This document shows positions 3,863-22,022 of a stretch of 64,000 bases of DNA, piece after piece. The notes beneath the pieces are model-generated. The model worked only from the letters and a program-made list of their open reading frames with translations, had not been told where the DNA came from and did not search any database. The number at the start of each line of letters is the position of its first letter. The first letter of the stretch is position 1. Made by a program: the position numbers and the translations under genes. This stretch comes from Glaciihabitans sp. INWT7 (lineage in GTDB: Bacteria > Actinomycetota > Actinomycetes > Actinomycetales > Microbacteriaceae), in the NCBI RefSeq assembly GCF_014217685.1, contig NZ_CP043653.1, forward strand, positions 3,166,419 to 3,230,418. The letters are read 5' to 3'.

Positions 3863-5149
3863 TCAGCCCAGGAGGTCGTGCCGAACCACGATCGCCTCGC
3901 GGTCGGGACCGACTCCGATGGCAGAAATGCGTGCACCACTCATCTTCTCGACCGCGAGCACATAGTCGCGCGCATTCTTCGGCAGGTCGTCGAATGTGCG
4001 GGCGCCGGTGATGTCCTCGGTCCAGCCGGGCAATTCCTCGTAGATCGGCACGGCATGGTGGAAGTCCGACTGCGATACCGGCACCTCGTCGACACGCACG
4101 CCGTCGATGTCGTAGGCGACACAGACCGGGATGCGCTCGAGCCCGGTGAGCACATCGAGCTTGGTCAGCACGAAGTCGGTCACCCCGTTGATGCGTGCCG
4201 CATACCGCGCGACGGGAGCGTCGTACCATCCACAGCGCCGCGGTCGCCCGGTGGTGGTGCCCCACTCGAAGCCCTTCGAGCGGAGGAACTCGCCGGATTC
4301 GTCGTGCAGCTCAGTGGGGAACGGGCCGGAGCCCACCCGGGTCGTGTAGGCCTTCACGACGGCGATGACGCGCTCCAACCGGTTCGGCGCGACGCCGGAT
4401 CCGGTGGCAGCGCCGCCGCTCGTGGCGTTGGACGAGGTCACGAAGGGGTAGGTGCCGTGATCGACGTCGAGCATGGTGGCTTGGCCGCCCTCGAACAACA
4501 CAGTCTTCCCGTCATCGAGAGCCTGGTTGAGCACGAGGCTCGTGTCGGCGACCATGGGGCGCAGCCTGTCGACGTAGGAGAGCAGGTCGGCGACGACCTC
4601 CTCTGCACCGATAGCGCGCCGGTTGTAGATCTTCACCAGTAGGTGGTTCTTCTGCTCGAGTGCACCCTCCACTTTCTGGCGCAGGATGTTCTCGTCGAAC
4701 AGGTCCTGGATGCGGATGCCCACGCGGTTGATCTTGTCGGCGTAGGCCGGTCCGATGCCGCGCCCGGTGGTTCCGATCATCCGCTTGCCGAGGAAGCGTT
4801 CCGTGACCTTGTCGAGCGTGCGGTGATACTGCGTGATGACGTGGGCGTTCGCGGAGACGAGAAGCCGCGAGACATCCACCCCTCGCGCGGTGAGCGCTTC
4901 GAGCTCGTGGAAGAGCACCTCGATGTCGACGACGACACCGTTGGCGATCACCGGGACGACCCCGGGGCTCAGGATGCCGGAGGGCAGCAGGTGCAACGCG
5001 TACTTCTCATCACCGACGACCACGGTGTGGCCGGCGTTGTTTCCGCCGTTGAATTTGACGACATAGTCGACACGGGGGCCGAGGAGATCGGTGGCCTTCC
5101 CCTTGCCCTCATCGCCCCACTGGGCGCCGATCAAGACAATCGCGGGCAT
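3863..5149 (-). CDS. purA: Adenylosuccinate synthetase
   Basis: GTP-dependent ligation of IMP and aspartate to adenylosuccinate, the first step from IMP to AMP. The 428 residues are the standard length. It opens with the invariant WGDEGKGK phosphate loop, followed by a NAGHT segment, and retains the family sequences [10 protein letters not shown], [19 protein letters not shown] chemistry as [13 protein letters not shown], and KLDVLTG (GTP/base recognition). An AAGGA ribosome-binding site lies 6 nt before the ATG. It is upstream of and nearly abuts the SGNH-like gene, and follows the giant surface-protein gene by 55 bp on the same strand. Confidence 0.97.
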
Positions 5150-5204: not shown

Positions 5205-8200
5205 TCAGGGGTTCGTGCGATTGCGTCGCCCGACGATCACGATCATGACACCGAGCATGAGCAACAGCAGGCCGATGGCCACCATCGACCAGGGGTCCGC
5301 CCCGGTGAAGGCGAGGCCCGTGTTGGCGAGACCGATCTTCGTGGAATGGGACTTGGTCGAGCCGGTGAACGCGAGCCCGATGGACGGCGTCACCGTGATC
5401 GTGATGGCGGCGGTCGCGGTGCTGCCCGCGGCATCCGTCGTCGTGTAGCTCAGGGTCTCGAGTCCAGACCAGCCGTCGGTGGGCGTGAAGGTGGCGGTTC
5501 CGTCGGCGGTGATTGCCATCGTGCCGTGGGTGGACTTCGCGAAGGCCGTGACCGTGAGGCCGGTTCCCACGTCGTTGCCGAGCAGCGCGAAGCTCACGGC
5601 CTTGCCGGCGGGGGTCTTCGCCGCATCCGGAGCCGCGGTGGGGCGGATGGTGATGGTGGCGAGGTTCGCTGTGGTGAGGCCGGCCCAGTCGGTGGTGGTG
5701 TACTCCATCGTCGCGATACCGGACCAGCCGGTCGGTGGCGTGAACGAAACCGTGCCGTTGCGCTGGATGCTCGCGCGACCGTTGCTCGGGATGCCGATGC
5801 TGGTCACCGCAAGGCTCCAGCCGATGTCGTTGCCGTTCAGGTCGATCACGATGGGGGCGTTCGCCGATCCCGTGGCGGTGTCCGGCAGCGAGATCGGCGA
5901 GACGAATACCGTGACGAGCGCGGTGCGCAGCACCCCGGCGCCGTCCTGAGCGGTGTAGCTGAAGGTGTCGGTGCCCGAGAAGCCCGCGAGGGGCACGTAG
6001 CGGATGCGGCCGTCGACGACACTGGTCGTGCCGTGATCCGGCGTGCCCGGGTCGGTGATCTCGAATCCGGTGCCGACGTCGTTGGCGAGCACGTCGATGT
6101 CTACCGGCTGGTCGGCGACGGTGGTTCCGACGTCGCCGGCGGTCGTCGGCGAGACCGCGATGCGCACCGTGGCTGTGGACGTTCCGCCGTCGCCGGCCAT
6201 CACGTAGGTGAAGACGTCGGCTCCCGAGTAGCCGTCGTTCGGAAGGTAGCTGATGCCGCCGTCGACGATCGTCACGGTGCCGTGCGACGACGGGGAGGCG
6301 CTGGTGACGGTGAGGGTGGTGCCGAGGTCGTTGGCGAGAACCGGGACTACCACCGCGATGCCGGTGACGGTGGCATCCACATCACTGACGGCAACGGGGC
6401 CGACGGTGACTGTGACCGTGGTGGTGGCGGTGTTGCCCGCGGCATCCCGCACCGTGTAGTCGTAGCCGCCCGTGCCGGAGAAGCCGACTGTCGGCACGAA
6501 GTGCACCGAGCCCGAGGCCAGGGTGACGGTGCCGCCAACCGGGTTTGCCACCGAGGTGATTACGAGTGTCGAACCGAGGTCGTTGGCGGTGAGAGCGGAT
6601 GCGGCGCTCACGAGCTCGATGCCCGCGGAGGTTGCACGGGCGTCGGGAGTGGCGCTCGGGCGTACGGTGACCGCGACCGTCGCGGTCACCGTCTGGCCGG
6701 ACGCATCCGTCGCCGTGTACGAGAAGCTCGCGTTGCCCGAGAAGCCGGCCGCCGGGGTGAAGGTGACGACGCCGTTCAGCAGTGCGACGGTGCCGTGGGT
6801 GGCTGAGGTGACCGCCGTGACGGTGAGCGCGCTTCCCACATCGTTACCGGTGAGCTCGGCGCCGGTGATGGTCGCCGCGGCGCCGGCCGTGGTGGTGAGC
6901 GCGTCACCGGCGGCGATCGGTCGCACGGTGACCGTGACCGTGGCGGTAGCGGTATTGCCGGCGGCATCCGTGACGGTGTAGTCGAAGGAGGCCGCCCCGG
7001 AGAACCCGGGCGCCGGCGTGAACACCGGGTTGCCGCCGCCGAGCACGACGCTGCCGCCCGCGGCGTTCTGCACCGAGGTCACGGTGAGGGACGAGCCCGC
7101 GTCATTGCCGACCAGGGAAGCGCGGGTCACCGTCACCGGCGCACCGGCCAGGGTCGAGGCGGCATCCGCAGCGGCGACCGGAAGCACTGTGACGGTGACC
7201 GTCGTCGAGGTGGTGTTGCCCGAGGAGTCGGTGGCCGTGTAGCCGAAGGAGGCCGCACCCGAGAACCCGGCGGTCGGGGTGAACACCGGGTTGCCGGCGT
7301 TGAGCGTGACGGCTCCGTGCGACGCGGATCCCACCGAGGTCACGACGAGCGAGCTGCCGGAGTCGTTGGCCAGGAGCGTGGAACCGGGGAGGGTGATCGC
7401 CGTGTTGGCGTTGGTGCTGGCGGAGTCGGCGACAGCGAGCGGCAACACCGTGACCGTGACGGTCGCCGTGGAGCTGTTGCCCGCGGAATCCGTGACCGTG
7501 TAGGAGAAGCTCGCGGTGCCCGAGAAGCCGGCGGTCGGTGTGAACACCGGGTTGCCCGCGAGATCCAGGGCGACGGCGCCGTTGACCGGGTTGCCGACCG
7601 CCGTGAGCGACAGTCCGGAGCCGAGGTCGTCACCGATGAGGCTGGCGGTGGTCACGAGGAGCGGGGCACCGCCTCGTGTGGTCGCGGTGTCTGGCGTGGC
7701 GACCGGAAGCACCGTGACCGAGACGGTGGATGTCACGGTGTTGCCGCTGCCGTCGGTGGCGGTGTACGCGAACGAGGCCGGGCCGGAGAAGCCTGCCGCC
7801 GGGGTGAAGCGCGGGCTTCCGCCGTTGAGGGTGACGGTGCCACCGACCGCCGACGAGACCGCGGTGATCGTGAGAACGGAGCCGGAGTCGTTGGTGGTGA
7901 GGTCGGTCAGCGTGACCGGTGTGCCCGCGGGGGTCGAGGCCTGGTCCGGGGTGGCGGTCGGAAGCACGGTGACGGTGACCGTGGCGGTGGTCTGCTGGCC
8001 CGCGGCATCCGTCGCCGTGTAGTCGAAGGTGGCGGTGCCCGAGAAGCCGGAGGCCGGAGTGAACTGCGCGGCGACCGCCGGGCCGGCGAGCAGTGCGACC
8101 GATCCGTGGGTCGGGCTGCTCACGTTGGTGAGCTGCAGCGTCGTGCCGGTGTCGTTGGCGAGGAGGGTCGTCGCGCTGAGGGAGACCGGAGTGCCCGCGG

Positions 8201-11200
8201 TGGTCGAGGCGCTGTCAGCGGTCGCGGTCGGCGTCACGGTGACGTGGACCGTCGCACTGGTCACGCTGTTCGCGCCATCGGTGACGGTGTAGTCGAAGGA
8301 GGCCGCCCCGGAGAATCCGGCGGCCGGGGTGAAGCGCGGGTTGCCGCCGTTCAGCGCCACCGAGCCGTTGACCGGGTTGGAGACACCGGTGATCGTGAGT
8401 CCGGCACCGGAGTCGTTGGAGAGCAGTACCGCGGCCGGGAAGGTCACCGGGGCGGCGGCCGTGGTGGTGCCGTTGTCGTCCACGGCGCCCGGAGAGACGA
8501 CGACCGTCACCATCGAGGTGGTGGTGGCGCCGGAGGCATCCGTCGCCGTGTATTGGAAGGATGCGACGCCCGAGAAGCCCGCCGCCGGGGTGAAGCGCGG
8601 GTTGCCGCCGTTCAGGGCGACGGAGCCGTTGACTGCGGAGCCGACCGCGGTGACGGTGAGGCCGGTACCGGCATCGTTGGCGGTGAGGATGCTTCCCGTG
8701 ATCACGAGCGGCACGTCGACGCCGGTGGCGGCGCTGTCGCCGACCGAACTCGGGGTCACGGTGATCGCTACCGTGGCGGTGGCGGTGCGGCCGGAGGCGT
8801 CGGTCACGGTATACGTGAAGACTGCGGGTCCCGAGTAGTTGTTGGCCGGAGTGAACGCGGCGTTGCCCGCGGTGAGGCCGACAGTGCCGTGGGTCGCGCC
8901 GGAGACCGCGGTGACGGTGAGAGCGGATCCGGAGTCATTGCCCGCGAGGGTGGCACCGGGGATCGTGACCGTGGTGTTCGCCGCGGTGGTGGCGGAATCG
9001 GCGGTTGCGGTCGGCCGCACGGTGACGGTGACGGTGGAACCGGTCGTCGAACCGGAGGCGTCGGTGACGGTGTAGTCGAACCCGGCGGTGCCGGAGAAGC
9101 CTGCGGCCGGGGTGAAGACCGGGCTGCCTCCGCCGAGGACGACTGTTCCGTTCGTCGGGTTCGCGACGGCGGTGACGGTGAGACCGGTGCCCGCGTCATT
9201 GGCGGTGATCGCGCTGCCTGCGATGATCACGGCGGTGTTCGCGGTCGTGCTGGCGGTATCCGTCGCCGCGGTCGGCGTGACAGTGACGGTGACCGTGGCC
9301 GAGGTGGTGGCTCCGCTGGAGTCGGTGACGGTGTACAGGTACGACGCCTGGCCGGAGAAGCCGGCGGCCGGAGTGAAGACCGGGTTGCCGGAGTTCAGAG
9401 CGACGGTGCCGTGCGAGGGGCTGCCGACCGCGGTGACCGCGAGGCCGGATCCCGCGTCATTGCCGAGCAGGGATGCCCCGGCTGCGGTCACTGCCGTGTT
9501 GGCGGTCGTGGTGACGGAGTCGGCCGCGGCCGTCGGACGCACCGTGATCGTCACGGTGCTCGAGACTGTTGCGCCACTGGCGTCGGTGGCCGTGTAGGAG
9601 AAGCCGGCCGCGCCGGAGAAGTTGCTCGCCGGGGTGAAGATCGGGCTGCCCGCATTCAACACGACGGAGCCGTTGGTGGCCGAGCCGACCGCCGTGACCG
9701 TGAGGACCGAGCCCGCGTCATTGGACGTGAGGGTCGTGAGGGTCACCGGCGTGTTCGCGTTCGTGCTGGCCGCATCCGGCGCGGCGACCGGGAGCACGGT
9801 GACGGTGACGGTCGCCGAGGTGGTCTTGCCCGCGGCATCCGTGGCCGTGTAACCGTAGGACGCTTGGCCGGAGAAGCCTGCCGCCGGGGTGAAGATCGCA
9901 TTGCCCGCGTTCAGCACGACGGAGCCGTTGGTCGCGGATCCGACGGCGGTGACCGTGAGACCGGAGCCCGCGTCGTTACCGACCAGTGCGCTGCTCGTCA
10001 CGGGGGTGTTCGCCGTGGTGGTGGCCGTGTCGGCCGCGGCGACCGGAAGCACCGTGACCGTGACGGCGGCGACCGCGGTGAGGCCGGATGAATCGGTGGC
10101 CGTGTAGGCGAAGCTCGCGCTTCCCGAGAATCCCGTCGCGGGCACGAAGGTGGCGATTCCCGAGGCGAGGGAGACCGTTCCGTGCGTGGGCGCAGACACC
10201 GCGGTCACCTGCAGTCCGGACCCGAGGTCGTTGCCGACCAGGTCCGTCGCGGCGACGTCGACGGCGGTGTTCGCGGGGGTAATGGCCGAGTCGTCGACGG
10301 CGAGCGGACGCACGGTGACCGTGACGGTCGCGCTGGCGGTCTTGCCGGAGGCATCCGTCGCCGTGTACTGGTAGCTGGCGGCACCGGAGTAGCCGGGCGT
10401 CGGCGTGAAGCGCGGGTTGCCGGAGTTAAGAGCGACGGTGCCGTGGCTTCCGTTCGCGACGGCGACGACGGTCATTCCGGTGCCGAGGTCGTTGGAGGTC
10501 AGATCCGTGCCGAGGGTGGTGACCGAGGTGTTCGTCACCGTCGAGGTGGCGTCCGCGGTCGCGGTCGGGAGCACGCTGACGGAGACGGTCGCGGTGGAGG
10601 TCGCGCCCGCGGCATCCGTCACCGTGTAGTCGAAGGAGGCCGGGCCGGAGTATCCGGCGGCGGGGGTGAAGACCGGGCTGCCGGCCGTCAGGACGACGGT
10701 GCCGTGGCTGGCGCCGCCGACGGCCGTGACCGTGAGGCTGGTGCCGCGGTCGTTGCCGGTGAGGGCGGATGCGGCGACGCCGAGCGCGGTGTTGGCGGTG
10801 GTGGTCGCGGTGTCGGCGACCGCCTTCGGCAGGACCGTCACGGTGACGGTGGCGGACGAGGAGGTGCCGGTGGAATCGGCGACCGTGTACTGGAAGCTCG
10901 CCACACCCGAGAAGTTCGCGGTCGGCACGAATACCGGGTTGCCGCTCGCGTCGAGGGAGACCGTGCCGTTAACCGGGGAGGAGACAGCCGTGAGGTGGAG
11001 GCCGGATCCGCTGTCATTGGCCAGCAGGTCCGAGGCCAGGATGGTGGTCGTGACGTCGACCGTGGTGATCGCCGTGTCGTTGCCCGCTCCCGGCGTCACC
11101 GTGACGGTGACGGTGGCGGAGCTGGTCGCGCCGGCGGAGTCGGTGGCGGTGTAGACGAAGCTCGCGATGCCCGAGAAGCCGAGGGCCGGGGTGAACCGGG

Positions 11201-14200
11201 GGCTGCCACCGTTGAGAACGACGGTGCCGTTCACCGGGGACGAGACGCCCGTGACGCTGAGGCTCGAGCCGGCGTCGTTACCGAGCAGGGTCAATCCGAG
11301 CAGCGTGACCGGCACATTCACGCCGGTCGTCGTCGAGTCGGCGCCGGCGACGGGGAGCACGGTCACCGATACCGTGGCCGAGGTGGTCTTGCCGCTCGCG
11401 TCGGTGGCGGTGTAGTCGAAGGATGCCGCGCCGGAGAAGCCTGCCGCCGGGGTGAAGATCGGGCTGCCCGCATTCAGGGCGACCGTGCCGTGGCTGGCGG
11501 ATCCCACCGCGGTGACGGTGAGTGCGGTTCCCACGTCGTTGCCGGTGAGGGTCGGGAAGGTGACGGGGGTGTTCGCGGTGGTCGAACCCGCATCCGTTGC
11601 CGCGACGGGCAGAACGGTGATCGTGACGGTCGCGGAGCTCGTCTTGCCGCTGCCGTCGGTGGCGGTGTAGCCGAAGGATGCCGTGCCGGAGAAGCCTGCC
11701 GCCGGGGTGAAGATCGGGCTGCCCGAGTTCAGCACCACTGTGCCGTTCACCGGGGAGGAGACCGCGGTGACGGTGAGCGCTGATCCCGCATCGTTCGCGG
11801 TGAGGGTCGACAGGGTCAGCGGGGTGTTCGCGGTGGTCGAACCGGCATCCGCCGCGGCGACCGGCAGAACCGTGATCGTGACCGTGGCCGAGCTGGACTT
11901 GCCGCTGGCGTCGGTGGCCGTGTAGCCGTAGGACGCGGTGCCGGAGAAGTTGTTGGCCGGCGTGAAGACGGGGCTCCCGCCGCCCAGGACGACAGTGCCG
12001 TTGGCCGGGGTCGAGACCGCGGTGACCGTGAGGCCGGTGCCCGCGTCGTTCGCCAGCAGATCGGAGCTGACGAGCGGGGTGTTCGCGTTGGTGGTGCGCG
12101 CGTCCGCGACGGCGGTCGGGAGCACGGTGATGGTCACCGTTGCCGTGGAGGTCGTGCCGGTGCCATCCGTCGCGGTGTAGAGATACGAGGCGGTGCCGGA
12201 GAAGTTGGTGGTCGGGGTGAAGATCGGCGATCCGCCGTTGAGGGCGACGGTACCGTTCGTCGCGGCCGAGACCGCGGTGACGGTGAGCCCGGTGCCGATG
12301 TCATTGGCGGTGAGGTCGCCGGTGGTGATCGCGACGTTCGCGGTGGTGGTGCGGGCATCGGCGACCGCTCCCGGCAGCACGGTCACGGTGACCGTCGCCG
12401 AGGTGGTCTTGTTGTTGCCATCGGTGGCGGTGTAGACGAAGGTCGCGACGCCGGAGAAGCCCGCGGTCGGGGTGAACGTGGGGTTGCCGCCGGCCAGGGA
12501 GACCGTGCCGTGAGTGGCGCTCGAGACGGCTGTGACGGTGAGGCCGGTGCCCGCGTCGTTGGCGACCAGGGTCGATCCGGGCACGGTCACCGCGGTGTTC
12601 GCCGCGGTGCTGGTGGAATCGGCGGCGGCGACCGGCAGCACCGTGACGGTGACGGTGGCGCTGCTCGTGCGGTTGGCGGCATCCGTGGCCGTGTAGGAGT
12701 AGGAGCCGACAGCGGAGAACCCGGCGGCCGGGGTGAAGATCGGCGCGCCACCGTTCAGGGCGACCGTGCCGTTCACCGGCGCGGAGACGGCGGTGACGCT
12801 GAGGCCGGTGCCCGCATCGTTCGCCGCGAGGGTGGAGGAGGTCACCGGCGTGTTGGCGGTCGTGGTGGCGGTGTCAGCGGCGGCGACCGGAAGCACGGTG
12901 ACGGAGACGGTGGAGGAGGCGGTCTGGCCCGCGGCATCCGTCACCGTGTAACCGAACGATGCGGTGCCGGAGAAGTTGTTCGCCGGTGTGAAGACCGGGC
13001 TGCCGTTCGTGAGCACTACAGTGCCGTTGACCGGGGCCGCGACCGCGGTGACGGAGAGCGAGGTTCCGGCGTCATTTGCGGTGAACGTCGAGACGGTGAC
13101 CGGGGTGTTCGCGTTGGTGCTGGCCGTGTCCGGTGCCGCGATCGGGCGAACGGTGACGGTCACGGTCGCGGAGGTGGTGCCACCGGTGGAGTCGGTGGCG
13201 GTGTAGAGGTAGGTGGCGGGACCGGAGTAGTTGGCGTCCGGGGTGAAGACGGCGTTGCCCGCGGTCAGGACGACGGTGCCGTGGCTCGGCGACGAGACCG
13301 CAGTGACTGTGAGGCCGGTGCCCGCGTCGTTCGCGACGAGGGCCGAACCGGCGGTCGAGACCGGCGAGTTCGCGTTCGTGGCGACGGCATCTGCGGCAGC
13401 GACGGGCACCACGGTGATGCTGACGGTCGCGGAGGTGGACTTGCCGGAGCCATCCGTCGCCGTGTACACGAAGCTGGCCGGGCCCGAGAAGTTGGTCGTG
13501 GGGGTGAAGATGGGCGAGCCGGCGTTCAGCGTGACGGCGCCGTTGCTCGCCGTGCCGACCGCGGTGACGGCGAGGCTGGTGCCCGCGTCGTTCGCGACGA
13601 GGTTGGACAGCGTGATCGCGGTGTTCGCGTTGGTGGAGCTGGCGTCCTCTGCCGCGATCGGCAGGACGGTGATCGTGACGGTCGCTGTGGTCGACGCTCC
13701 GGTGCCGTCTTTCGCCGTGTAGGGGAAGGATCCGGTGCCGGAGAAGCCGGGGCTCGGGGTGAAGATCGGGCTGCCGGCGTTCAGGACGACGGTGCCGTTG
13801 GTGGCGGCGCCAACGGCGGTGACGGTGAGACCGGTGCCCAGGTCGTTGCCGGTGAGGGCGGAGAGGGTGATCGCGGTGTTCGCATTCGTGGTCGCCGCGT
13901 CGTTGATCGCGGTCGGCAGCACGGTGACCGTGACGGTGGAGGTCGCGACCTGGCCGGACGCGTCGGTCACCGTGTACGCGAACGAGGCTGAGCCCGAGAA
14001 GCCTGCCGCCGGGGTGAAGACCGGGTTGCCGCCGGCGTTCAGGACCACAGAGCCGTTGACCGGGCTGCCCACCGCGGTGACGGTGAGGGTGGTGCCGACG
14101 TCGTTGCTGGTGAGGGATGCGGCGGGGATGGTGACGGCGGTGTTCGCGGTCGTGGTCTTGGCGTCCGGCGCGGCGGTCGGGGTCACCGAGACGGTGACAG

Positions 14201-17200
14201 TGGAAGAGACGATCGCCCCGCTGGAGTCGGTGGCCGAGTAGGAGAAGACGGCCGGGCCGGAGTAGCCGGCGGCCGGAGTGAACACCGGGTTGCCGGAGTT
14301 GAGCGCGACGGTGCCGTTGCTCACGGCGCCGACGGCCGTGACGGTCAGGCCGGTGCCGGCGTCATTGGCGACGAGCGACGCACCCGGGACGGTGACGGCG
14401 GTGCCGGCCGGGGTGGTGGCGACATCGGGGGTCGCGGTCGGAAGCACGGTGATCGTGACTGTCGCGTTGACAGCCTGGCCGGAGGAATCCTTCGCGGTGT
14501 ACCCGAAGGATGCCGTTCCAGAGAAGCCCGTCGCGGGGGTGAAGATCGGGCTGCCCGCGTTGAGGACTACCGTGCCGTTGGTGGCGGAGCCGACCGCGGT
14601 GACGGTGAGGCCGGTGCCGGCGTCGTTCGCGGTGAGGGTCGAGAGGGTGACCGGGGTGTTGGCGGTGGTGGTCTTCGCATCGGCGACCGCGACGGGAAGC
14701 ACGGTGACCGTGACCGTTGCGGAGCTCGTGCGGTTGGAGGAGTCGGTGGCGGTGTAGAGGAATGACGCGGTGCCGGAGAAGCCGGTCGCCGGGGTGAAGA
14801 TCGGGCTTCCCCCGTTGAGGACGACCGTGCCGTTCGTGGCGGAACCGACCGCGGTGACGGTGAGGCCGGTTCCGGCGTCGTTCGCGGTGAGGGTCGAGAG
14901 CGTCACGGCGGTGTTCGCGGTGGTGGTGCGGGCATCCGCGGCAGCGACCGGCAGCACGGTGACGGTGACGGTGGCGGAGGTGGTCTTGCCGCTGCTGTCG
15001 GTGGCCGTGTAGGAGTAGCTGGCGGTGCCGGAGAAGCCGGTGGTCGGAGTGAAGATCGGCGACACACCGTTCAGCACGACGGTGCCGTTGACCGGGGAGG
15101 CGACCGCGGTGACGGTGAGGCCGGTTCCGGCGTCGTTCGCGGTGAGGGTCGAGATCGTCACCGCGGTGTTCGCCGCGGTGGTGGCGGAATCGGCGGCGGC
15201 GACCGGGAGCACCGTCACCGTGACGGAGGCGGAAGTGGCCTTGCCATTCCCGTCGGTGACCGTGTAGCCGTAGGCGGCGGTGCCGGAGAAGCCCGTCGTC
15301 GGGGTGAAGATCGGCGAGCCGCCGTTCAGCACGACAGCGCCGTTCACCGGGGAGGAGACCGCGGTGACGGCCAGTCCGGTACCGAGGTCGTTGCCGGTGA
15401 GGTCGGTGGAGGTGACCGGCGTGTTCGCGTTCGTGGTGCGAGCGTCCGAGACGGCGGTCGGGAGCACGGTCACGGTGACCGTGGTGCTGGAGCTTGCGCC
15501 CGAGGCATCCGTGACCGTGTAGTCGAAGGTTGCGATGCCGGAGAAGGAAGGCGCCGGGGTGAAGACCGGGTTGCCGGAGACGAGAATGATCGTGCCGTGG
15601 GTGGCGTTGGAGACGGCGGTGATGCCGAGCCCGGTGCCACGGTCATTCGCCAGGAGAGCGGATGCCGCGGTGGTGACCGCGGTGTTCGCGTTCGTGGTCG
15701 CGACGTCGGCGACGGCCCTCGGCACTACCGTCACGGCGACGGTCGCTGTGCTGGTGCGGTTGGACGAATCGGTCGCCGTGTAGACGAAGGATGCGGCTCC
15801 GGAGAAGTTCGCGCTCGGCACGAACACGGGGTTGCCGCTCGCGTTGAGGGACACAGTGCCGTTCACCGGGGAGGAGACGGCGGTGAGGGCGAGGCCCGAT
15901 CCTGAGTCGTTCGCCAGCAGGGTCGCCGCCGGGATCGTGACTGTCACGTCGACGACGGTGCTCGTGGTGTCGTTGACGGCGCCCGGGGTGACCGTGACGG
16001 TCACCGTCGCGCTGGTGCTCTTACCGGCGGCATCGGTGGCGGTGTAGCCGTAAGAGGCGGTTCCAGAGAAGCCGAGGGCCGGAGTGAAGATGGGGTTGCC
16101 GCCGTTGAGGGCGACGGTGCCGTTGACCGCGGAACCGACCCCGGTCACCGTCAGGCCGGTGCCGGCGTCGTTACCGACGAGGGTCATGCCGAGGCTCGTG
16201 ACCGGTACGTTCACGCCGGTCGCTGCAGCATCCGCGGCCGCGACCGGAAGAACTGTGACGGTCACCGTCGCGGAGCTCGTCTTGCCGCTTCCGTCAGTCG
16301 CGGTGTAGGAGAAGGATGCGGCGCCGGAGAAGTTGTTCGCGGGGGTGAAGATCGGGGCGCCCCCGTTCAAAGCGACGGTGCCATTCACCGCGCTGCCCAC
16401 TGTGGTGACGGTCAGCGCCGTGCCCGCATCGTTGCCGGTCAGAGCCGATAACGTCACCGGGGTGTTCGCGTTAGTCGTGCCGGCATCCGGGGCCGCGATC
16501 GGGAGGACCGTGACCGTGACGGTCGCCGTGGTCGTGCGGTTCGAGGAGTCGGTGGCCGTGTAGCTGAACGATCCGGTGCCGGAGAAGTTCGCGCTCGGGG
16601 TGAAGATCGGCGAGCCGCCGTTCAGGGCGACCGAGCCGTTCGCCGGAGCGGAAACCGCCGTGACCGAGAGGGACGAGCCCGCATCGTTCGCGGTCAGGTT
16701 CGCGATCGTGAGCGGGGTGTTCGCGTTCGTGCTGCGAGCGTCCGCGACCGCGACCGGCACCACTGTGACGGTGACCGTGGAGGAGGCGGCCCTGCCCGCC
16801 GCATCGGTGACCGTGTAGCCATAGGAGGCTGTGCCGGAGAAGCCGGTCGTCGGCGTGAAGATCGGCGAACCCGAGTTCAGCGCCACGGTGCCGTTCACCG
16901 GGGAGGAGACCGCGGTGACGGTGAGACCCGTTCCGGCGTCGTTCGCGGCGAGGGAGGAGCTGGTCACCGGGGTGTTGGCGTTCGTGGTGGCGGTGTCGGC
17001 GACGGTGGTCGGAAGCACCGTGACCGCGACAGAGGCCGAAGTGGTCTTGCCCGAGGCATCCGTCGCCGTGTATCCGTACGAGGCGGCTCCGGAGAAGCCG
17101 GTCGTCGGCGTGAAGACCGGGCTGCCGCCGTTCAGGGCGACGGTGCCGTTGACCGGGCTGGAGACTGCGGTGACAGTGAGACCCGCGCCTGCGTCGTTGC

Positions 17201-20200
17201 CGGTGAGGGTCGCCACCGTGACTGCGGTGTTCGCGTTGGTGGTGACCGAGTCGTTCGCCGCGACAGGCAGCACCGTGACGGTCACCGTCGCGGTGGAAGT
17301 CTTTCCGGCCCCGTCGGCGACCGTGTAGGCGAAGGATGCCGTGCCGGAGAAGTTGTTCGCGGGGGTGAAGATCGGCGAACCGCCGTTCACCACGACCGTG
17401 CCGTTCACCGGGGAAGACACCGTGGTGACGGTGAGGCCGGTGCCCGCGTCGTTAGCGCGCAGGGCCGAGAGCGTGATCGCGGTGTTCGCGTTCGTGGTCG
17501 CGGTGTCGGCGGCCGCGACCGGCAGCACGGTGACCGTCACGGTGGCGGAGGTGGTCTTGCCGCTGCCATCCGTCGCGGTGTAGCTGTAGGAAGCCTGACC
17601 CGAGAAGCCCGCGGTCGGGGTGAAGACGGGGTTGCCGCCGCCCAAGACGACGGTGCCGTTCACCGGGGCGGAGACGACGGTGACGGTGAGGCCGGTGCCC
17701 GCGTCGTTCGCGGTGAGGTTCGTCGACGTGACGGCGGTGTTCGCGGTGGTTGTCGCGGTGTCAGCCGAAGCGATCGGCAGCACCGTGATGGTGACGATGG
17801 CCGACGAGGTCTTGCCCGCCGAGTCCGTCGCGTTGTACTGGTAGCTGCCGGTGCCCGAGAATCCGGCGGTCGGGGTGAAGCTCGGGTTTCCGCCGTTGAA
17901 GGCGATGGTGCCGTTGACCGCGGCGCTCACCGAGGTGACGGTGAGGCCGGATCCGCCGTCATTCGCGACCAGGGTGGCGCCGGGGATCGTGATCGCGGTG
18001 TTCGCATTGGTCGTGCCGCTGTCGTCGACCGCCTTCGGCGTGACCGAGATGGTGAGGATGCTCGAGGAGCTGCCGCCCGCCGCGGTGAGGGTGTAGCTCA
18101 CCGAATCGGGACCGGAGTAACCGGCGGTCGGGGTGTAGGTGTACGCGCCGGTGGTGGCGGTGAGGGTGAGCGTCCCATGGCTCGGACCGGATGTCACGGC
18201 CACGGATTTGCCGGTGCCCAGGTCGTTCGTGAGCAGGTTGCCGGCGGCCGCGGTGTCCACCGGTGTCGAGAGTGTGTCGGCGACGGCAACCGGGGTGACC
18301 GTGATCGTCACGGTGGCCACAGCGGTTCCGCCGTCGCCGGTGAGCGTGTAGGTGAAGGAGTCGGTGCCGGAGAAGCCGGCGTTCGGGGTGTAGGTGCCCG
18401 TGCCATCCGCTGCGAGCACGACGGTGCCGTTGCTCGGGTTCGTGAGCTTCGCTGCGGACTTGTTGGTGCCCTTGTCGTTTGCGAGCACCGAGAGCGCTGC
18501 CGGGGTGCCGGCGGCGGTCGTGTAGGCGTCGTTGACGGCAAGCGGCGTGACCGTGATGGTCGCGGTCGCGGTCGATGTGCCGCCATCGGCCGTGAGGGTG
18601 TAGGTGAAGGAGTCGGTGCCCGTAAAGTTCGCATTCGGCGTGTAGGTGTACGCCCCGGGCGCGGAGAGAGTGAGCGTGCCGTTGGTCACGGTGGTGCCGA
18701 GCGCGACGGACTTGTTGGAGCCGTTGTCATTGATGGTGACATTGCCCGAGACAGCGGTGTTGACTCCGGTGGTGATGGTGTCGTTGACCGCGGTGGGCTT
18801 GACCGCGATCGACACGGTGGCCGTGGCGGTGCCACCATCGGCGGTGAGCGTGTAGGTGAAGACATCCGCGCCGGAGAAGGTTCCGGTGGGGGTGTAGGTG
18901 TACGCCCCGGTCGTGGGGTCGAGCACGACGGTGCCGTGGGTGGGTGCGGTGGTCACCGCGACCGATCGGTTTGTGCCGTGGTCGTTGGTGAGTACGTTTC
19001 CGGAGACGGCCACCGTCGACGTGGTGGTCGCCGAGTCGTTCGCCGCCGTCGGTGTGACGAGGATGCTGACGGTGGCGGTGGCCGATCCCCCGGTGCCGCT
19101 CAGCGTGTAGGTGAAGGTGTCGGTGCCGGTGAATTCCGCGTTCGGCACGTAGGAGCCCGTGCCATTGCTCGCGATCGTCACGGTTCCGTGGGCCGGATCG
19201 GTGAGCTTCGTCGCCGTGATGCTCGTGCCCTTGTCGTTGGCGAGCACGCTCACCGGCACGGCGGTGTTGACCGGGGTCGTGTACGAGTCGTTCACGGCGA
19301 GCGGGGTGACGGTGATGTTGACGGTCGCGGTGGAGGTGCCGCCGGTGGCCGTCTGCGTGTAGGTGAAGGAGTCGGTGCCGGAGTATCCGCTCGCCGGCGT
19401 GTAGGTGACGGTGCCGTTCGGCGCGAAGTTGAGCGTGCCGTGGGTCGGGTTCGTCGCGACCGCTGCGGTCTCGCTCGCCCCCGGGTCGTTGGCGAGCACG
19501 TTGATTGTCGCGGGGGTGTTGGTGGATGTCGCGATCGTGTCGTTGTACGCCTTCGGGGGCACGGTGACGGTGACGGTCGCGGTCGCGACCTGGCCGTACT
19601 GGTCCGTCACGGTGTAGGTGAAGCTGTCGGTGCCGGAGAAATTGGCCGCCGGGGAGTACGTCACGGTGTTTCCGACACCGGTGCCGGTGACGACGGCGAT
19701 GCCGTTGGCGGGGGTGGACACCGCGGTCACGGAGAGTCCCGTGCCGGTGTCGTTGGCGAGCACGCCGATGTTCACCGGTGTCGCGGTGGTGGTGACCGCG
19801 GCCGGGTAGGTAGTGGATGCTGTGTCGTTGACGGCCTTGATGGCGGTTGGAGCGACTGTGGTCGTTACGCTCGCCGTGTTGTTCGAGAGGTCGGTGTCGG
19901 CTTCGTTGCCGGTGACCTTCGCGGTGTTCTTGAGGGTGGCGAATCCATTGGGAGCCGTGGCCTTCACGGTGATAACGACACTCGCACCGACGGCGAGCGC
20001 CCCGCTCGTACAGTCGAGATTCGATCCCGCGATGGTGCAGTTCGCGTTCGTGGACGTGGCCGTCACCGCGGAGATGCCGGTCGGCAGGGCGTCCTGAACG
20101 ACGAAGCCGGAGCTGAGCCCGGGGCCCGCATTGTTGACGGTGATGGTCCAGGTGACCTGCGTCGAGACGAGCACGGCGGCCGGGCCGGTCTTCGTGATCG

Positions 20201-21095
20201 AGAGGTTGGCGGGAAGGCTCAGGCAGTTCGTCGCGTCACTGCGCGCGTTCGCGGGGGTGGTGATCGCCGTTCCGACGAGAGCGAGAGTCGGTGCCGCCGA
20301 GGTGGGGTTGGTCACAGCGACCTGGTACATCGTCGCGGCTGTCGAGATGAAGGCGAGGTTGCCGTTGTTCATCGCGAACACCGAGCCGTACCCGTTCACG
20401 GGGATGATCGTGGACGAGATCGTCGTGACATTTCCGGAGAAATCGATGCGGTAGAAGTTGTTGTTCGTGTTGTAGTCGTGGCCCCAGAGGTAGCCGTCCT
20501 TGACCGCGAGGTCGGCGAATCGGATGTTCGGGATCGTGATCGTCGTGCGGGTGAGGGCGGCGCCGGTGGCGAGGTTGGCGATCTTGTAGATCGCGGTGGT
20601 GCCCGCGTTTCCGTTGGCGACATAGTAGTTGCCGGCGCTGTCGAAGGTGCCGCTGTCCCACAGCGAGCTCGGCGCGGTGCCGAGAGCCGGGGAGGCGGCG
20701 AAGGTGGCCACGATGTTGCCGGTGCTGTCGATCCGCACGATCGAGCCGTTGATCAGCGTGCCGTAGAGGAAGTTGTCGACGGGGTTGAAGGCGAGGGCGT
20801 TGTAGTTGGTGGTCGCGGTGCCTTGATTCGGGCCGAAGGCGGTGAAGGTGGAGCTGCCATTCGAGTTGTAGGTGCCCTTGTAGAGCTGGGTGCTCGTGCC
20901 CGAACTGGGGCCGTACTGGGCGAAGAAGGTGGGAACGACGCAGTCGAACTTGAGTCCGGCGCCGTCGGCGACCGCAGCCTGCGGTGTGGTGACGACCTCG
21001 GAGACGACGGTGATTCCGAAGACGGCGATGCTGAGCGCAAGGGTCGCCGCAAGGAAGCGGGTGAGGAGCGCTGAACTTCGGGTCGCGATAGTCAC
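5205..21095 (-). CDS. Giant LAXTG-anchored surface protein with 56 Ig/cadherin-like repeats
   Basis: A predicted 5,296-residue wall-anchored surface protein. The order is: signal peptide (1 to about 43, charged start, hydrophobic core, A-V-A-D cleavage region); a 250-residue beta-propeller-like head (about 48-295, resembling DUF6923); a DUF11 domain (about 296-418); 56 tandem 84-94-residue repeats (about 419-5238) of the Big_9/cadherin-like type, each with an A-x-x-D start, an A-N-D-x-G turn, N/H-G-T, F-T-P and G-F-S-G motifs and a Y-T-x-T-D strand; then LAFTG, LANTG and LAFTG (5241-5265), a membrane span (5270-5288) and an RRNR tail. LAXTG is the class E sortase motif. The GTG at 21095 is chosen because the signal peptide begins there and GAAAGG precedes it. 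The frame is intact throughout. Likely role: adhesin or stalk; ligand unknown. Confidence 0.85.
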   Translation of the reverse strand: MTIATRSSALLTRFLAATLALSIAVFGITVVSEVVTTPQAAVADGAGLKFDCVVPTFFAQYGPSSGTSTQLYKGTYNSNGSSTFTAFGPNQGTATTNYNALAFNPVDNFLYGTLINGSIVRIDSTGNIVATFAASPALGTAPSSLWDSGTFDSAGNYYVANGNAGTTAIYKIANLATGAALTRTTITIPNIRFADLAVKDGYLWGHDYNTNNNFYRIDFSGNVTTISSTIIPVNGYGSVFAMNNGNLAFISTAATMYQVAVTNPTSAAPTLALVGTAITTPANARSDATNCLSLPANLSITKTGPAAVLVSTQVTWTITVNNAGPGLSSGFVVQDALPTGISAVTATSTNANCTIAGSNLDCTSGALAVGASVVITVKATAPNGFATLKNTAKVTGNEADTDLSNNTASVTTTVAPTAIKAVNDTASTTYPAAVTTTATPVNIGVLANDTGTGLSVTAVSTPANGIAVVTGTGVGNTVTYSPAANFSGTDSFTYTVTDQYGQVATATVTVTVPPKAYNDTIATSTNTPATINVLANDPGASETAAVATNPTHGTLNFAPNGTVTYTPASGYSGTDSFTYTQTATGGTSTATVNITVTPLAVNDSYTTPVNTAVPVSVLANDKGTSITATKLTDPAHGTVTIASNGTGSYVPNAEFTGTDTFTYTLSGTGGSATATVSILVTPTAANDSATTTSTVAVSGNVLTNDHGTNRSVAVTTAPTHGTVVLDPTTGAYTYTPTGTFSGADVFTYTLTADGGTATATVSIAVKPTAVNDTITTGVNTAVSGNVTINDNGSNKSVALGTTVTNGTLTLSAPGAYTYTPNANFTGTDSFTYTLTADGGTSTATATITVTPLAVNDAYTTAAGTPAALSVLANDKGTNKSAAKLTNPSNGTVVLAADGTGTYTPNAGFSGTDSFTYTLTGDGGTAVATVTITVTPVAVADTLSTPVDTAAAGNLLTNDLGTGKSVAVTSGPSHGTLTLTATTGAYTYTPTAGYSGPDSVSYTLTAAGGSSSSILTISVTPKAVDDSGTTNANTAITIPGATLVANDGGSGLTVTSVSAAVNGTIAFNGGNPSFTPTAGFSGTGSYQYNATDSAGKTSSAIVTITVLPIASADTATTTANTAVTSTNLTANDAGTGLTVTVVSAPVNGTVVLGGGNPVFTPTAGFSGQASYSYTATDGSGKTTSATVTVTVLPVAAADTATTNANTAITLSALRANDAGTGLTVTTVSSPVNGTVVVNGGSPIFTPANNFSGTASFAYTVADGAGKTSTATVTVTVLPVAANDSVTTNANTAVTVATLTGNDAGAGLTVTAVSSPVNGTVALNGGSPVFTPTTGFSGAASYGYTATDASGKTTSASVAVTVLPTTVADTATTNANTPVTSSSLAANDAGTGLTVTAVSSPVNGTVALNSGSPIFTPTTGFSGTASYGYTVTDAAGRAASSTVTVTVVPVAVADARSTNANTPLTIANLTANDAGSSLSVTAVSAPANGSVALNGGSPIFTPSANFSGTGSFSYTATDSSNRTTTATVTVTVLPIAAPDAGTTNANTPVTLSALTGNDAGTALTVTTVGSAVNGTVALNGGAPIFTPANNFSGAASFSYTATDGSGKTSSATVTVTVLPVAAADAAATGVNVPVTSLGMTLVGNDAGTGLTVTGVGSAVNGTVALNGGNPIFTPALGFSGTASYGYTATDAAGKSTSATVTVTVTPGAVNDTTSTVVDVTVTIPAATLLANDSGSGLALTAVSSPVNGTVSLNASGNPVFVPSANFSGAASFVYTATDSSNRTSTATVAVTVVPRAVADVATTNANTAVTTAASALLANDRGTGLGITAVSNATHGTIILVSGNPVFTPAPSFSGIATFDYTVTDASGASSSTTVTVTVLPTAVSDARTTNANTPVTSTDLTGNDLGTGLAVTAVSSPVNGAVVLNGGSPIFTPTTGFSGTAAYGYTVTDGNGKATSASVTVTVLPVAAADSATTAANTAVTISTLTANDAGTGLTVTAVASPVNGTVVLNGVSPIFTPTTGFSGTASYSYTATDSSGKTTSATVTVTVLPVAAADARTTTANTAVTLSTLTANDAGTGLTVTAVGSATNGTVVLNGGSPIFTPATGFSGTASFLYTATDSSNRTSSATVTVTVLPVAVADAKTTTANTPVTLSTLTANDAGTGLTVTAVGSATNGTVVLNAGSPIFTPATGFSGTASFGYTAKDSSGQAVNATVTITVLPTATPDVATTPAGTAVTVPGASLVANDAGTGLTVTAVGAVSNGTVALNSGNPVFTPAAGYSGPAVFSYSATDSSGAIVSSTVTVSVTPTAAPDAKTTTANTAVTIPAASLTSNDVGTTLTVTAVGSPVNGSVVLNAGGNPVFTPAAGFSGSASFAYTVTDASGQVATSTVTVTVLPTAINDAATTNANTAITLSALTGNDLGTGLTVTAVGAATNGTVVLNAGSPIFTPSPGFSGTGSFPYTAKDGTGASTTATVTITVLPIAAEDASSTNANTAITLSNLVANDAGTSLAVTAVGTASNGAVTLNAGSPIFTPTTNFSGPASFVYTATDGSGKSTSATVSITVVPVAAADAVATNANSPVSTAGSALVANDAGTGLTVTAVSSPSHGTVVLTAGNAVFTPDANYSGPATYLYTATDSTGGTTSATVTVTVRPIAAPDTASTNANTPVTVSTFTANDAGTSLSVTAVAAPVNGTVVLTNGSPVFTPANNFSGTASFGYTVTDAAGQTASSTVSVTVLPVAAADTATTTANTPVTSSTLAANDAGTGLSVTAVSAPVNGTVALNGGAPIFTPAAGFSAVGSYSYTATDAANRTSSATVTVTVLPVAAADSTSTAANTAVTVPGSTLVANDAGTGLTVTAVSSATHGTVSLAGGNPTFTPTAGFSGVATFVYTATDGNNKTTSATVTVTVLPGAVADARTTTANVAITTGDLTANDIGTGLTVTAVSAATNGTVALNGGSPIFTPTTNFSGTASYLYTATDGTGTTSTATVTITVLPTAVADARTTNANTPLVSSDLLANDAGTGLTVTAVSTPANGTVVLGGGSPVFTPANNFSGTASYGYTATDASGKSSSATVTITVLPVAAADAGSTTANTPLTLSTLTANDAGSALTVTAVSSPVNGTVVLNSGSPIFTPAAGFSGTASFGYTATDGSGKTSSATVTITVLPVAATDAGSTTANTPVTFPTLTGNDVGTALTVTAVGSASHGTVALNAGSPIFTPAAGFSGAASFDYTATDASGKTTSATVSVTVLPVAGADSTTTGVNVPVTLLGLTLLGNDAGSSLSVTGVSSPVNGTVVLNGGSPRFTPALGFSGIASFVYTATDSAGATSSATVTVTVTPGAGNDTAITTVDVTTTILASDLLANDSGSGLHLTAVSSPVNGTVSLDASGNPVFVPTANFSGVASFQYTVADSTGTSSSATVTVTVLPKAVADTATTTANTALGVAASALTGNDRGTSLTVTAVGGASHGTVVLTAGSPVFTPAAGYSGPASFDYTVTDAAGATSTATVSVSVLPTATADATSTVTNTSVTTLGTDLTSNDLGTGMTVVAVANGSHGTVALNSGNPRFTPTPGYSGAASYQYTATDASGKTASATVTVTVRPLAVDDSAITPANTAVDVAATDLVGNDLGSGLQVTAVSAPTHGTVSLASGIATFVPATGFSGSASFAYTATDSSGLTAVAAVTVTVLPVAAADTATTTANTPVTSSALVGNDAGSGLTVTAVGSATNGSVVLNAGNAIFTPAAGFSGQASYGYTATDAAGKTTSATVTVTVLPVAAPDAASTNANTPVTLTTLTSNDAGSVLTVTAVGSATNGSVVLNAGSPIFTPASNFSGAAGFSYTATDASGATVSSTVTITVRPTAAADSVTTTANTAVTAAGASLLGNDAGSGLAVTAVGSPSHGTVALNSGNPVFTPAAGFSGQASYLYTVTDSSGATTSATVTVTVTPTAATDTASTTANTAVIIAGSAITANDAGTGLTVTAVANPTNGTVVLGGGSPVFTPAAGFSGTAGFDYTVTDASGSTTGSTVTVTVRPTATADSATTAANTTVTIPGATLAGNDSGSALTVTAVSGATHGTVGLTAGNAAFTPANNYSGPAVFTYTVTDASGRTATATVAITVTPSSVGDSAATGVDVPLVITGSILTANDAGTGLTVTAVGSAVNGSVALNGGNPRFTPAAGFSGVASFQYTATDASGATTTSMVTVVVSPGAVDDNGTTTAAAPVTFPAAVLLSNDSGAGLTITGVSNPVNGSVALNGGNPRFTPAAGFSGAASFDYTVTDGANSVTSATVHVTVTPTATADSASTTAGTPVSLSATTLLANDTGTTLQLTNVSSPTHGSVALLAGPAVAAQFTPASGFSGTATFDYTATDAAGQQTTATVTVTVLPTATPDQASTPAGTPVTLTDLTTNDSGSVLTITAVSSAVGGTVTLNGGSPRFTPAAGFSGPASFAYTATDGSGNTVTSTVSVTVLPVATPDTATTRGGAPLLVTTASLIGDDLGSGLSLTAVGNPVNGAVALDLAGNPVFTPTAGFSGTASFSYTVTDSAGNSSTATVTVTVLPLAVADSASTNANTAITLPGSTLLANDSGSSLVVTSVGSASHGAVTLNAGNPVFTPTAGFSGAASFGYTATDSSGNTTSTTVTVTVLPVAAADAASTLAGAPVTVTRASLVGNDAGSSLTVTSVQNAAGGSVVLGGGNPVFTPAPGFSGAASFDYTVTDAAGNTATATVTVTVRPIAAGDALTTTAGAAATITGAELTGNDVGSALTVTAVTSATHGTVALLNGVVTFTPAAGFSGNASFSYTATDASGQTVTATVAVTVRPSATPDARATSAGIELVSAASALTANDLGSTLVITSVANPVGGTVTLASGSVHFVPTVGFSGTGGYDYTVRDAAGNTATTTVTVTVGPVAVSDVDATVTGIAVVVPVLANDLGTTLTVTSASPSSHGTVTIVDGGISYLPNDGYSGADVFTYVMAGDGGTSTATVRIAVSPTTAGDVGTTVADQPVDIDVLANDVGTGFEITDPGTPDHGTTSVVDGRIRYVPLAGFSGTDTFSYTAQDGAGVLRTALVTVFVSPISLPDTATGSANAPIVIDLNGNDIGWSLAVTSIGIPSNGRASIQRNGTVSFTPPTGWSGIATMEYTTTDWAGLTTANLATITIRPTAAPDAAKTPAGKAVSFALLGNDVGTGLTVTAFAKSTHGTMAITADGTATFTPTDGWSGLETLSYTTTDAAGSTATAAITITVTPSIGLAFTGSTKSHSTKIGLANTGLAFTGADPWSMVAIGLLLLMLGVMIVIVGRRNRTNP
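5301..5375 (-). other. Triple LAXTG sorting-motif cluster
   Basis: Encodes LAFTG, then after ten residues LANTG directly followed by LAFTG. The last copy is the one correctly placed 4 residues before the hydrophobic span. Only one motif is normally needed for sortase cleavage. Confidence 0.8.
5382..19840 (-). repeat. Array of 56 in-frame ~255-261-bp repeats
   Basis: I aligned the translated repeats by eye and counted 56 units. The first seven (N-terminal) and last four are the most divergent and lack the V-N-G-T-V-x-L-N-G-G core; units 8-52 are closely related. Most units are 85 residues (255 bp) or 87 residues. A higher-order pattern is also present: units 15-17 (around 15.5-16.3 kb) closely match units 34-36 (around 10.7-11.4 kb). 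Confidence 0.85.
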
Positions 21096-21299
21096 GGGAC
21101 TATGCCTTTCGGGTATTCCCCGACACGGGTGAGGCGTCGAGCAGAATCCACCTCCCTGGGCGGGGAAGCGAACAATTCGGGTGTGCTGCGGGCAGAGCGC
21201 GGCAGAGAGTCGGCCGACGTCACAGTCGGCCAGATAGCCCCCAACCACCCCCGAGCCTATTGACGCCGCCGCGCCGCGACACTCCCCAATGCGGGTGTC

Positions 21300-21337
21300 G
21301 TGTAATAACTTGCACAGTCTTGTGCAAGTTATTACAC
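21300..21337. promoter_or_regulatory. 38-bp palindrome containing the TetR-gene promoter (probable operator)
   Basis: Arms 21300-21316 and 21321-21337 are perfectly complementary (17 bp each) around a GTCT centre. A promoter lies inside it on the plus strand: TTGCAC (21310-21315), 17-nt spacer, TACACT (21333-21338), with the ATG of the TetR gene 6 nt further. By symmetry the minus strand carries TTGCAC-N17-TACACG, pointing to the giant surface-protein gene 205 bp away. The operator role is inferred from its position in front of a TetR gene. Confidence 0.8.
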
Positions 21338-21344
21338 TGGAGCC

Positions 21345-22022
21345 ATGACCACCGCCTCCCCACTGCGTGCACCGCGCCGCGATGCCGCCGAGAATCGCGA
21401 GTCCCTTCTCGCCGCGGCGCGCGTCGTGTTCAACCACGATCCCTCCGCCTCACTCGAGGCGGTGGCCGCTCAGGCGGGCCTCAGCCGTCGCTCGGTCTAC
21501 GGGCACTTCGCCAATCGCGAGGAGCTGCTGCTGGAGCTCGTGACCACCGGCGCGCGCCGGGTGGCGACGGCGCTGGAGTCGGTGACCCATCCCGATCCCC
21601 TCGTGCGCCTCGCCCTGATCGCCTCGAGCCTCTGGCGCGAGGTGGAGAGCGTGCGCGTGATGGCGCTGGTGGCCGTGCGTGGCCCACTCGCGGTCCACAC
21701 CGCCGCGACCCTTGGTGCCATCAGGGCGAACGTGCGTGCCGCGATCACCGAGGGCCAGGCCGACGGATCGATGCGAACAGACCTCGCGGTCGAGCGCCTC
21801 GCCCGGCTGGTGGAAGACACTGCTCTCGTCGTGCTCGAAGACTCGACGGAGCATCCGCTCGGCGCGCAGGAGGGCGACCGCCTCGCCATGCTGATGACCC
21901 TGGCTGTCGTCGGTCTCGGCTGGCGCGAAGCCGGCACCTTCATCGACGGGCGACCCGAGCTCGCCTGGCCCGCCGCCACCGAACCAGCCGCCGATCTGCG
22001 AGCAGACAGGGCGGGCCAGTGA
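21345..22022 (+). CDS. TetR/AcrR family transcriptional regulator
   Basis: One-component repressor of 225 residues. The N-terminal helix-turn-helix is typical of TetR: R-E-S-L-L-A-A-A-R-V-V-F, then L-E-A-V-A-A-Q-A-G-L-S-R-R-S-V-Y-G-H-F and N-R-E-E-L-L-L-E-L. The C-terminal ligand domain is not recognisable to substrate level. The gene heads a three-gene operon (ATGA overlap with the next gene), and the palindrome covering its own promoter indicates autoregulation of the ABC-like/YhgE operon and possibly of the divergent giant gene. The start codon sits 6 nt after the -10 box. Confidence 0.9.
   Translation: MTTASPLRAPRRDAAENRESLLAAARVVFNHDPSASLEAVAAQAGLSRRSVYGHFANREELLLELVTTGARRVATALESVTHPDPLVRLALIASSLWREVESVRVMALVAVRGPLAVHTAATLGAIRANVRAAITEGQADGSMRTDLAVERLARLVEDTALVVLEDSTEHPLGAQEGDRLAMLMTLAVVGLGWREAGTFIDGRPELAWPAATEPAADLRADRAGQ

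Follow-up and report, generated by a model that had tools for sequence, protein, structure and literature searches.

The window analysed here, a stretch of 64,000 nucleotides from Glaciihabitans sp. INWT7, holds on its minus strand a single giant gene that sits between purA and the operator-like inverted repeat of a tetR gene. The features of the locus are listed below in window positions, with the evidence for each in brackets.

5205 to 21095, minus strand: giant surface-protein gene (5,296 aa, 509 kDa, pI about 4.05, 20% Thr)
20964 to 21095, minus strand: signal-peptide-like N-terminus, about aa 1–44 (read by eye)
20220 to 20924, minus strand: DUF6923 head, aa 58–292 (Pfam PF21959, 210 bits against a cut-off of 27; all-beta model)
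19863 to 20204, minus strand: DUF11 domain, aa 298–411 (Pfam PF01345, 78.8 bits against a cut-off of 24.6)
5385 to 19835, minus strand: 56 tandem Big_9/tandem-95 units, aa 421–5237 (own HMM; PF17963, NF012211)
5301 to 5315, minus strand: last of three LAXTG-type motifs (read from the sequence)
3863 to 5149, minus strand: purA, adenylosuccinate synthetase, directly downstream of the giant gene (PF00709, 600 bits)
21300 to 21337, no strand: operator-like inverted repeat with 17-nt arms, 100% complementary, in front of tetR
21345 to 22022, plus strand: divergent TetR-type regulator gene (PF00440, 37.8 bits against a cut-off of 24)

The giant gene runs from a GTG start at 21095 to a stop ending at 5205. 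The original prediction of one intact frame over this interval, made without naming a strand, was borne out, as the minus-strand reading gives 5,296 aa with a sole, terminal stop; the plus-strand reading contains stops. When the bases of the gene were shuffled (20 mononucleotide shuffles), no open run exceeded 534 codons, and the frame thus lies far beyond chance. At the proposed start the sequence reads CCCGAAAGGC, then GTGAC, and a matching start context in the shorter relative L018, described below, supports this GTG. The GC3 of the gene is 91%, a value at which long antisense ORFs are expected; two lie on the plus strand opposite the gene, at 7317–10091 and 18177–21074 (924 and 965 aa). 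Collapse or another assembly artefact of the array was considered and is unlikely because the repeats are divergent (longest exact DNA repeat 54 bp, no recurring 75-mer), and the genome consists of 2 contigs and is listed as 100% complete.

Head, repeat units and predicted wall anchor

The protein is ordered as a signal-like N-terminus, a DUF6923 head, one DUF11 domain, 56 Big_9/tandem-95 units and a LAFTG anchor. The domain search suggested with the original prediction placed DUF6923, DUF11 and Big_9 all above their Pfam cut-offs. In three pieces of the protein, Big_9 (PF17963) scored 146–478 bits against a cut-off of 23.6 and the tandem-95 model NF012211 scored 308.6–501.5 bits against 90, with the highest value in the N-terminal third; by these scores the protein belongs to the tandem-95/Big_9 repeat proteins. 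The Cadherin_5 and Cadherin_4 models also exceeded their cut-offs on the array, with lower scores than Big_9 and tandem-95.

An HMM built from the giant protein itself delimited 56 contiguous units over aa 421–5237, each of 83–94 residues and mostly of 85 or 87, once two hits outside the array with sub-zero scores had been dropped; the number of repeats first proposed was thereby confirmed. Their description as near-identical did not hold. Over all 1,540 unit pairs, amino acid identity averaged 54% (range 25–86%) and nucleotide identity ranged from 43 to 82%, and units 8–52 averaged 61% and 67% identity at the amino acid and nucleotide level, respectively. The earlier argument for selection, drawn from an intact frame across near-identical repeats, loses that premise; selection on the units themselves is upheld by the substitution pattern, as 99.5% of the 990 pairs that units 8–52 form had a dN smaller than dS (median dN 0.35, dS 0.70, dN/dS 0.48), these pairs being non-independent and dS being high. 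Seven residues (D5, D30, G32, G46, P64, Y76 and P96) are invariant in 56/56 units and D80 is kept in 49/56. The units are short after the conserved ND (e.g. NDAGTGL), and a DxDxD-type loop at this position occurs 0 times in the giant protein. Among six Big_9 loci from the genus and family, NDSDPDGD/NDTDPDGD-type loops were seen in three (L101, L104 and L106, from G003, G008 and G033) and in none of the other three, one of which is from the same genome as the giant gene. The units could still bind Ca2+, given the aspartates retained at D5 and D30 in every unit and at D80 in most.

The model of units 19–21 contained strands only and was confident (mean pLDDT 96.7, pTM 0.82), although its alignment was drawn from the window's own triples and is hence narrow. 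Foldseek returned a fucoidan hydrolase as the top match; cadherins made up most of what followed, and SraP and RTX adhesin repeats ranked lower. Among the matches listed, TM-scores were 0.2–0.4 of the query. By sequence, the unit profile matched an RTX protein chain (E 5.1e-11) and also a KIAA0319-like chain. The head was modelled as all beta bar short turns (mean pLDDT 88.5). Its best solved sequence relative is glutamine cyclotransferase, a propeller enzyme, at a weak E of 1.8e-5; by fold, a sialidase and integrins came top, and Kelch, WD40 and fishelectin propellers came lower, at TM-scores below 0.4 of the query among the matches listed. The view of the head as propeller-like is thus plausible from the all-beta model and the cyclotransferase match, but is tempered by the low scores of the propeller folds. 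A CLIPPER adhesin domain (TM-score 0.76 of the target) was also matched and was assigned by size to the DUF11 part.

The C-terminus carries LAFTG, LANTG and LAFTG, and after these come a hydrophobic stretch and a basic tail. LAXTG is described as a sorting signal used by class E sortases (PMC5148588), and the genome encodes a class E sortase (246.5 bits against a cut-off of 160) and three other sortase-like genes. The features of a class E sortase substrate, namely the LAXTG motif, the hydrophobic stretch and the basic tail, are therefore present together with the enzyme, and anchoring itself is predicted. The LAXTG anchor proposed earlier can be read directly from the sequence, but two NCBIfam LAXTG models matched it below cut-off (20.1 against 65 bits and 20.3 against 27 bits).

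About 10 kb ahead of the window start is L003 (G000:C1:3154358-3157777), a sortase gene that resembles class F most but, at 108.4 bits, does not reach the cut-off of 166; its neighbours are by eye sigma-factor-like and exported-protein-like. Prompted by the Thr content of 20%, we also considered O-mannosylation; the genome has two partial matches to PMT (34.9 and 32.1 bits against 22.7), which made no case for it.

The purA site and a seven-unit relative

Homology to relatives on the purA side ends between 5148 and 5206, and on the tetR side it starts at 21304–21306, short extra self-matches of the inverted repeat being left aside. These ends bracket the giant gene together with its leader. 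Of the 12 congeners, 9 have tetR immediately next to purA, with a similar inverted repeat in the short gap between them; in two others (G001 and G002) another gene follows purA and no tetR was found. One congener (G005), in which purA is split over contigs, was left out of the count. The giant gene was absent from the purA site in all 11 judgeable congeners, and the genus thus does not need it. A search with the head and DUF11 across 13 genomes of the genus gave matches in the gene's own genome and in G009 only, the latter weak and mostly to the DUF11 part; DUF6923 also matched in G009, at three other places.

About 205 bp separate the inverted repeat from the start of the giant gene, and control of the gene by TetR through this repeat is a guess. 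A promoter and terminator scan of 20900–21500 gave 0 promoter-like and 0 terminator-like sites, a result that is uninformative for a GC-rich actinobacterium.

A different giant protein of DUF11 type with a LAFTG end (L121:7261-14001, G009:C113; 2,842-codon frame) was observed in congener G009, at the far edge of the tetR-ABC module adjoining purA; the purA/tetR neighbourhood thus hosts different giant surface proteins. The tetR and ABC-2 transporter stretch beside purA (window 21345–24624) is itself variable, with no tetR match there in 2 of 12 congeners (G001 and G002) or in L018.

A gene of 1,038 aa with 7 units (L018:4610-7726) was found in the MAG Homoserinimonas sp. RYN_87 (Microbacteriaceae). 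Like the giant gene, it lies directly before purA in the same orientation and combines DUF6923, DUF11, Big_9-type units and LAFTG; its head is about 51% identical to that of the giant protein, and the purA beside it is 89% identical. It differs from the window in having 7 rather than 56 units and in the absence of a tetR match in its locus. Judged from position and domain order, this gene looks like a positional orthologue of the giant gene, and the contrast of 7 with 56 units probably spans genera, not strains. G079, a genome of another genus-level group in the family, carries an equally long frame at the corresponding place on its contig and is probably the same MAG, which is the basis for this view.

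The wider family was surveyed for DUF6923 (E ≤ 1e-10) in 249 genomes drawn from it, which gave 31 matches in 27 genomes. The window frame was the longest (5,414 codons), followed by one of 3,269; in a sample of 60 relatives the next longest after it was 3,392. Of 78 loci, 55 were analysed and 23, which matched mostly the DUF11 part only, were left out. DUF6923 was recognised in 51 of these 55 loci, the longest DUF6923 frame among them being 2,297 codons, and 5 of the 51 carry Big_9-like units (1 to 11 units). Many actinobacterial relatives combine a DUF6923-DUF11 head with a LAXTG or LPXTG motif at the C-terminus. Overall, the giant gene is extreme in length within the family as sampled, and ordinary in kind.

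The first look at genome G015 gave 170 candidates. Another family member, G036 (C1, around 2607295), has a frame of 5,113 codons that matches Big_9 and at first looked like a second giant. In the stretch of it that was analysed the architecture is different. The longest frame there, of 3,059 codons, extends past the end of the stretch, 6 unit-like hits score above 15 bits, and the upstream region differs from that of the giant gene and is itself duplicated.

Probable growth of the repeat array

By HMM scores, identities and tree position, the array divides into a central class and two edge classes, and contains two runs of related units.

18036 to 19835, minus strand: units 1–7, edge class adjoining the head (lower scores to the central model; tree)
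6396 to 18035, minus strand: units 8–52, expanded central class, mean 61% aa identity (identities; tree grouping loose)
5385 to 6395, minus strand: units 53–56, edge class adjoining the wall (own HMM scores; L018 matches)
15459 to 17009, minus strand: units 12–17, one copy of a probable six-unit block duplication (lag-19 segment)
10566 to 12116, minus strand: units 31–36, other copy of the probable six-unit block (lag-19 segment)

The similarity between units at lags 1 and 19 was reached in 0 of 2000 permutations (40 lags tested); lags 7, 10 and 13 also fell below 0.05, uncorrected, among the 40 lags. The lag-19 signal was located in units 12–17 versus 31–36, and from this run an old six-unit block duplication is probable; the lag-19 partner was the best match for units 15, 16 and 17 only (3 of 26 units at lag 19). 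In a unit tree with an arbitrary (midpoint) root, the best clade joined 40 of the 45 central units with two L018 units at a support of 0.53, and because the central units group this loosely, the expansion history is only suggestive. Best matches to the shorter relative were also compared: 37 of the 45 central units matched L018 unit 3 best, window unit 53 matched L018 unit 4, unit 54 matched unit 5, and units 55 and 56 both matched unit 6. In the other direction, L018 units 1, 2, 4 and 7 had their best matches in window units 6, 45, 4 and 56, respectively. Together, these matches would fit an array that expanded in its interior and kept its edges, for which the backing from the tree is loose.

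We infer that the direction of change was from 7 to 56 units; alternatively, the L018 array could have been shortened by loss from a longer ancestor. The giant array would have grown mainly by duplication of the inner unit class, probably including the six-unit block, and its copies would then have diverged. Now that the copies differ, the array would be expected to vary less easily in length than that of a periscope protein.

Likeness to large adhesins and interpretation

Several known giant proteins resemble the product of this gene in part. SiiE of Salmonella is described as a linear protein of 53 BIg (Ig-type) domains, 595 kDa and about 175 nm, encoded by an apparently stable gene (PMC6272769), and is in a similar size class (53 versus 56 domains, 595 versus 509 kDa). 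It is described with type I secretion and Ca2+-binding Asp sets, whereas the giant protein has a signal-like N-terminus, a sortase motif and no DxDxD-type loop. The giant adhesin of Mobiluncus mulieris is reported as 7,651 aa with 51 Ig-like domains, and its M. curtisii homologue as differing by 21 inserted domains (PMC10619420). Like the window's protein, it is actinobacterial, a single chain with about 50 Ig-like domains and a wall-anchor motif, but its domains are described as carrying covalent cross-links. In the window, Cys is absent from 56/56 units, Lys from 30 and Gln from 37, so such cross-links are not expected in most units, and assignment to cross-linked Ig adhesins of the Mobiluncus type was rejected on these counts, made from sequence alone.

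CshA-type fibril models matched some pieces of the giant protein (TIGR04225, 87.8 and 96.1 against 60 bits in 2 of 3; PF19076, 86.1 against 27 bits in 1 of 3) but were far outscored there by Big_9 and tandem-95, and the BapA/Bap/LapF model (NF045619, cut-off 180 bits) reached 81, 34.2 and 19.3 bits in the three pieces, so that this assignment was discarded. Fibrillar adhesin-like proteins are described as having 1 to 73 stalk domains each, with Big_9 as a named stalk domain (PMC8286594). The 56 tandem units form such a stalk; the class is further defined by at least one recognised adhesive domain from a list of 27, and in the head Pfam shows DUF6923 and DUF11 only. Both Big_9 and DUF11 are described as domains frequent in huge bacterial proteins (PMC11573180). 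Set beside 53 domains in SiiE, 51 in Mobiluncus and up to 73 in fibrillar adhesin-like proteins, the size of the giant protein is not unprecedented.

We favour, with a probability of roughly 0.7, the reading that the gene encodes a giant fibrillar adhesin-like protein, a stalk with a head that is anchored to the wall by the class E sortase. Its N-terminus would direct Sec-dependent export and, as suggested by motif and enzyme, the sortase would couple LAFTG to peptidoglycan. By stacking, the 56 beta-sandwich units would give a long acidic rod, its length very roughly 180–185 nm if each contributed the about 3.3 nm per domain of SiiE; a stalk of more than 100 nm, as originally predicted, is a reasonable estimate. 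At its tip, clear of the wall, the DUF6923-DUF11 head could bind a surface or polymer. The wall-anchored stalk with a head is supported by the Pfam and NCBIfam domains, the class E sortase and the confident all-beta model of three units. Points against the adhesin reading are the generic fold matches, headed by fucoidan hydrolase for the units and by sialidase and integrins for the head, the absence of the gene from the purA site in the 11 judgeable congeners, and the head domain DUF6923 itself, which is not known to have a binding function. An adhesive or binding role of the head is predicted, and a host as the source of its ligand is an assumption.

The same architecture could serve as a surface shield or matrix, a dense brush of acidic, Thr-rich rods with a head of little importance that would repel phages, predators or other cells, or hold cells in a film. 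We regard this as doubtful, though it is the most credible of the alternatives. Bulk and acidity do come from the stalk (pI 4.05 and 20% Thr for the whole protein, pI 5.6 for the head alone), and the head has diverged to about 51% identity with that of the orthologue beside a purA that kept 89%; however, stalks of different kinds carry DUF6923-DUF11 heads, suggesting that it is the head that is displayed. Whether unit number changes fast between strains, as in a periscope-type protein, is a separate matter that is compatible with an adhesin role. Periscope proteins (e.g. Sgo_0707) share the N-terminal head, tandem folded stalk, C-terminal wall anchor and length differences with the giant protein, and 7 versus 56 units at one locus would agree with rapid change. 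They are described, however, as needing long, highly similar DNA repeats, adjacent repeats being 82–100% identical in protein (PMC8201768), whereas all pairs of giant-protein units average 54%, no pair exceeds 82% in nucleotides and exact repeats reach no more than 54 bp. The 7-unit copy, moreover, is probably from another genus-level group rather than another strain, in a comparison that took one genome per species and set 7 against 56 units between relatives of one family. We therefore consider this reading unlikely. Least probable, and in our view very improbable, is an inflated repeat gene without current function: the gene is accessory, tetR lying directly beside purA without it in 9 of 12 congeners, but the frame has stayed intact while its units diverged to at most 82% nucleotide identity, and both the excess of dS over dN in 99.5% of the 990 non-independent pairs and the seven residues invariant in 56/56 units argue against this reading.

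Returning to the adhesin-like reading, a more specific history can be put forward tentatively, although the odds are against its holding in full: the lineage may have turned a surface protein of few units into one of 56 at a fixed site, by amplification of the inner class and divergence of the copies that locked the length, without long Asp-rich Ca2+ loops or cross-links and possibly switched through the tetR operator. DUF6923, a name for which our literature search found no paper, gains a defined experimental setting as the head of this protein. The giant protein would add to the known kind of giant adhesins represented by SiiE and the Mobiluncus protein, and has a useful, much shorter counterpart at the corresponding site in L018. 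This pair of 7 and 56 units at one site is a natural comparison for the effect of stalk length on a surface protein, and for how an array of this sort expands and later ceases to vary.
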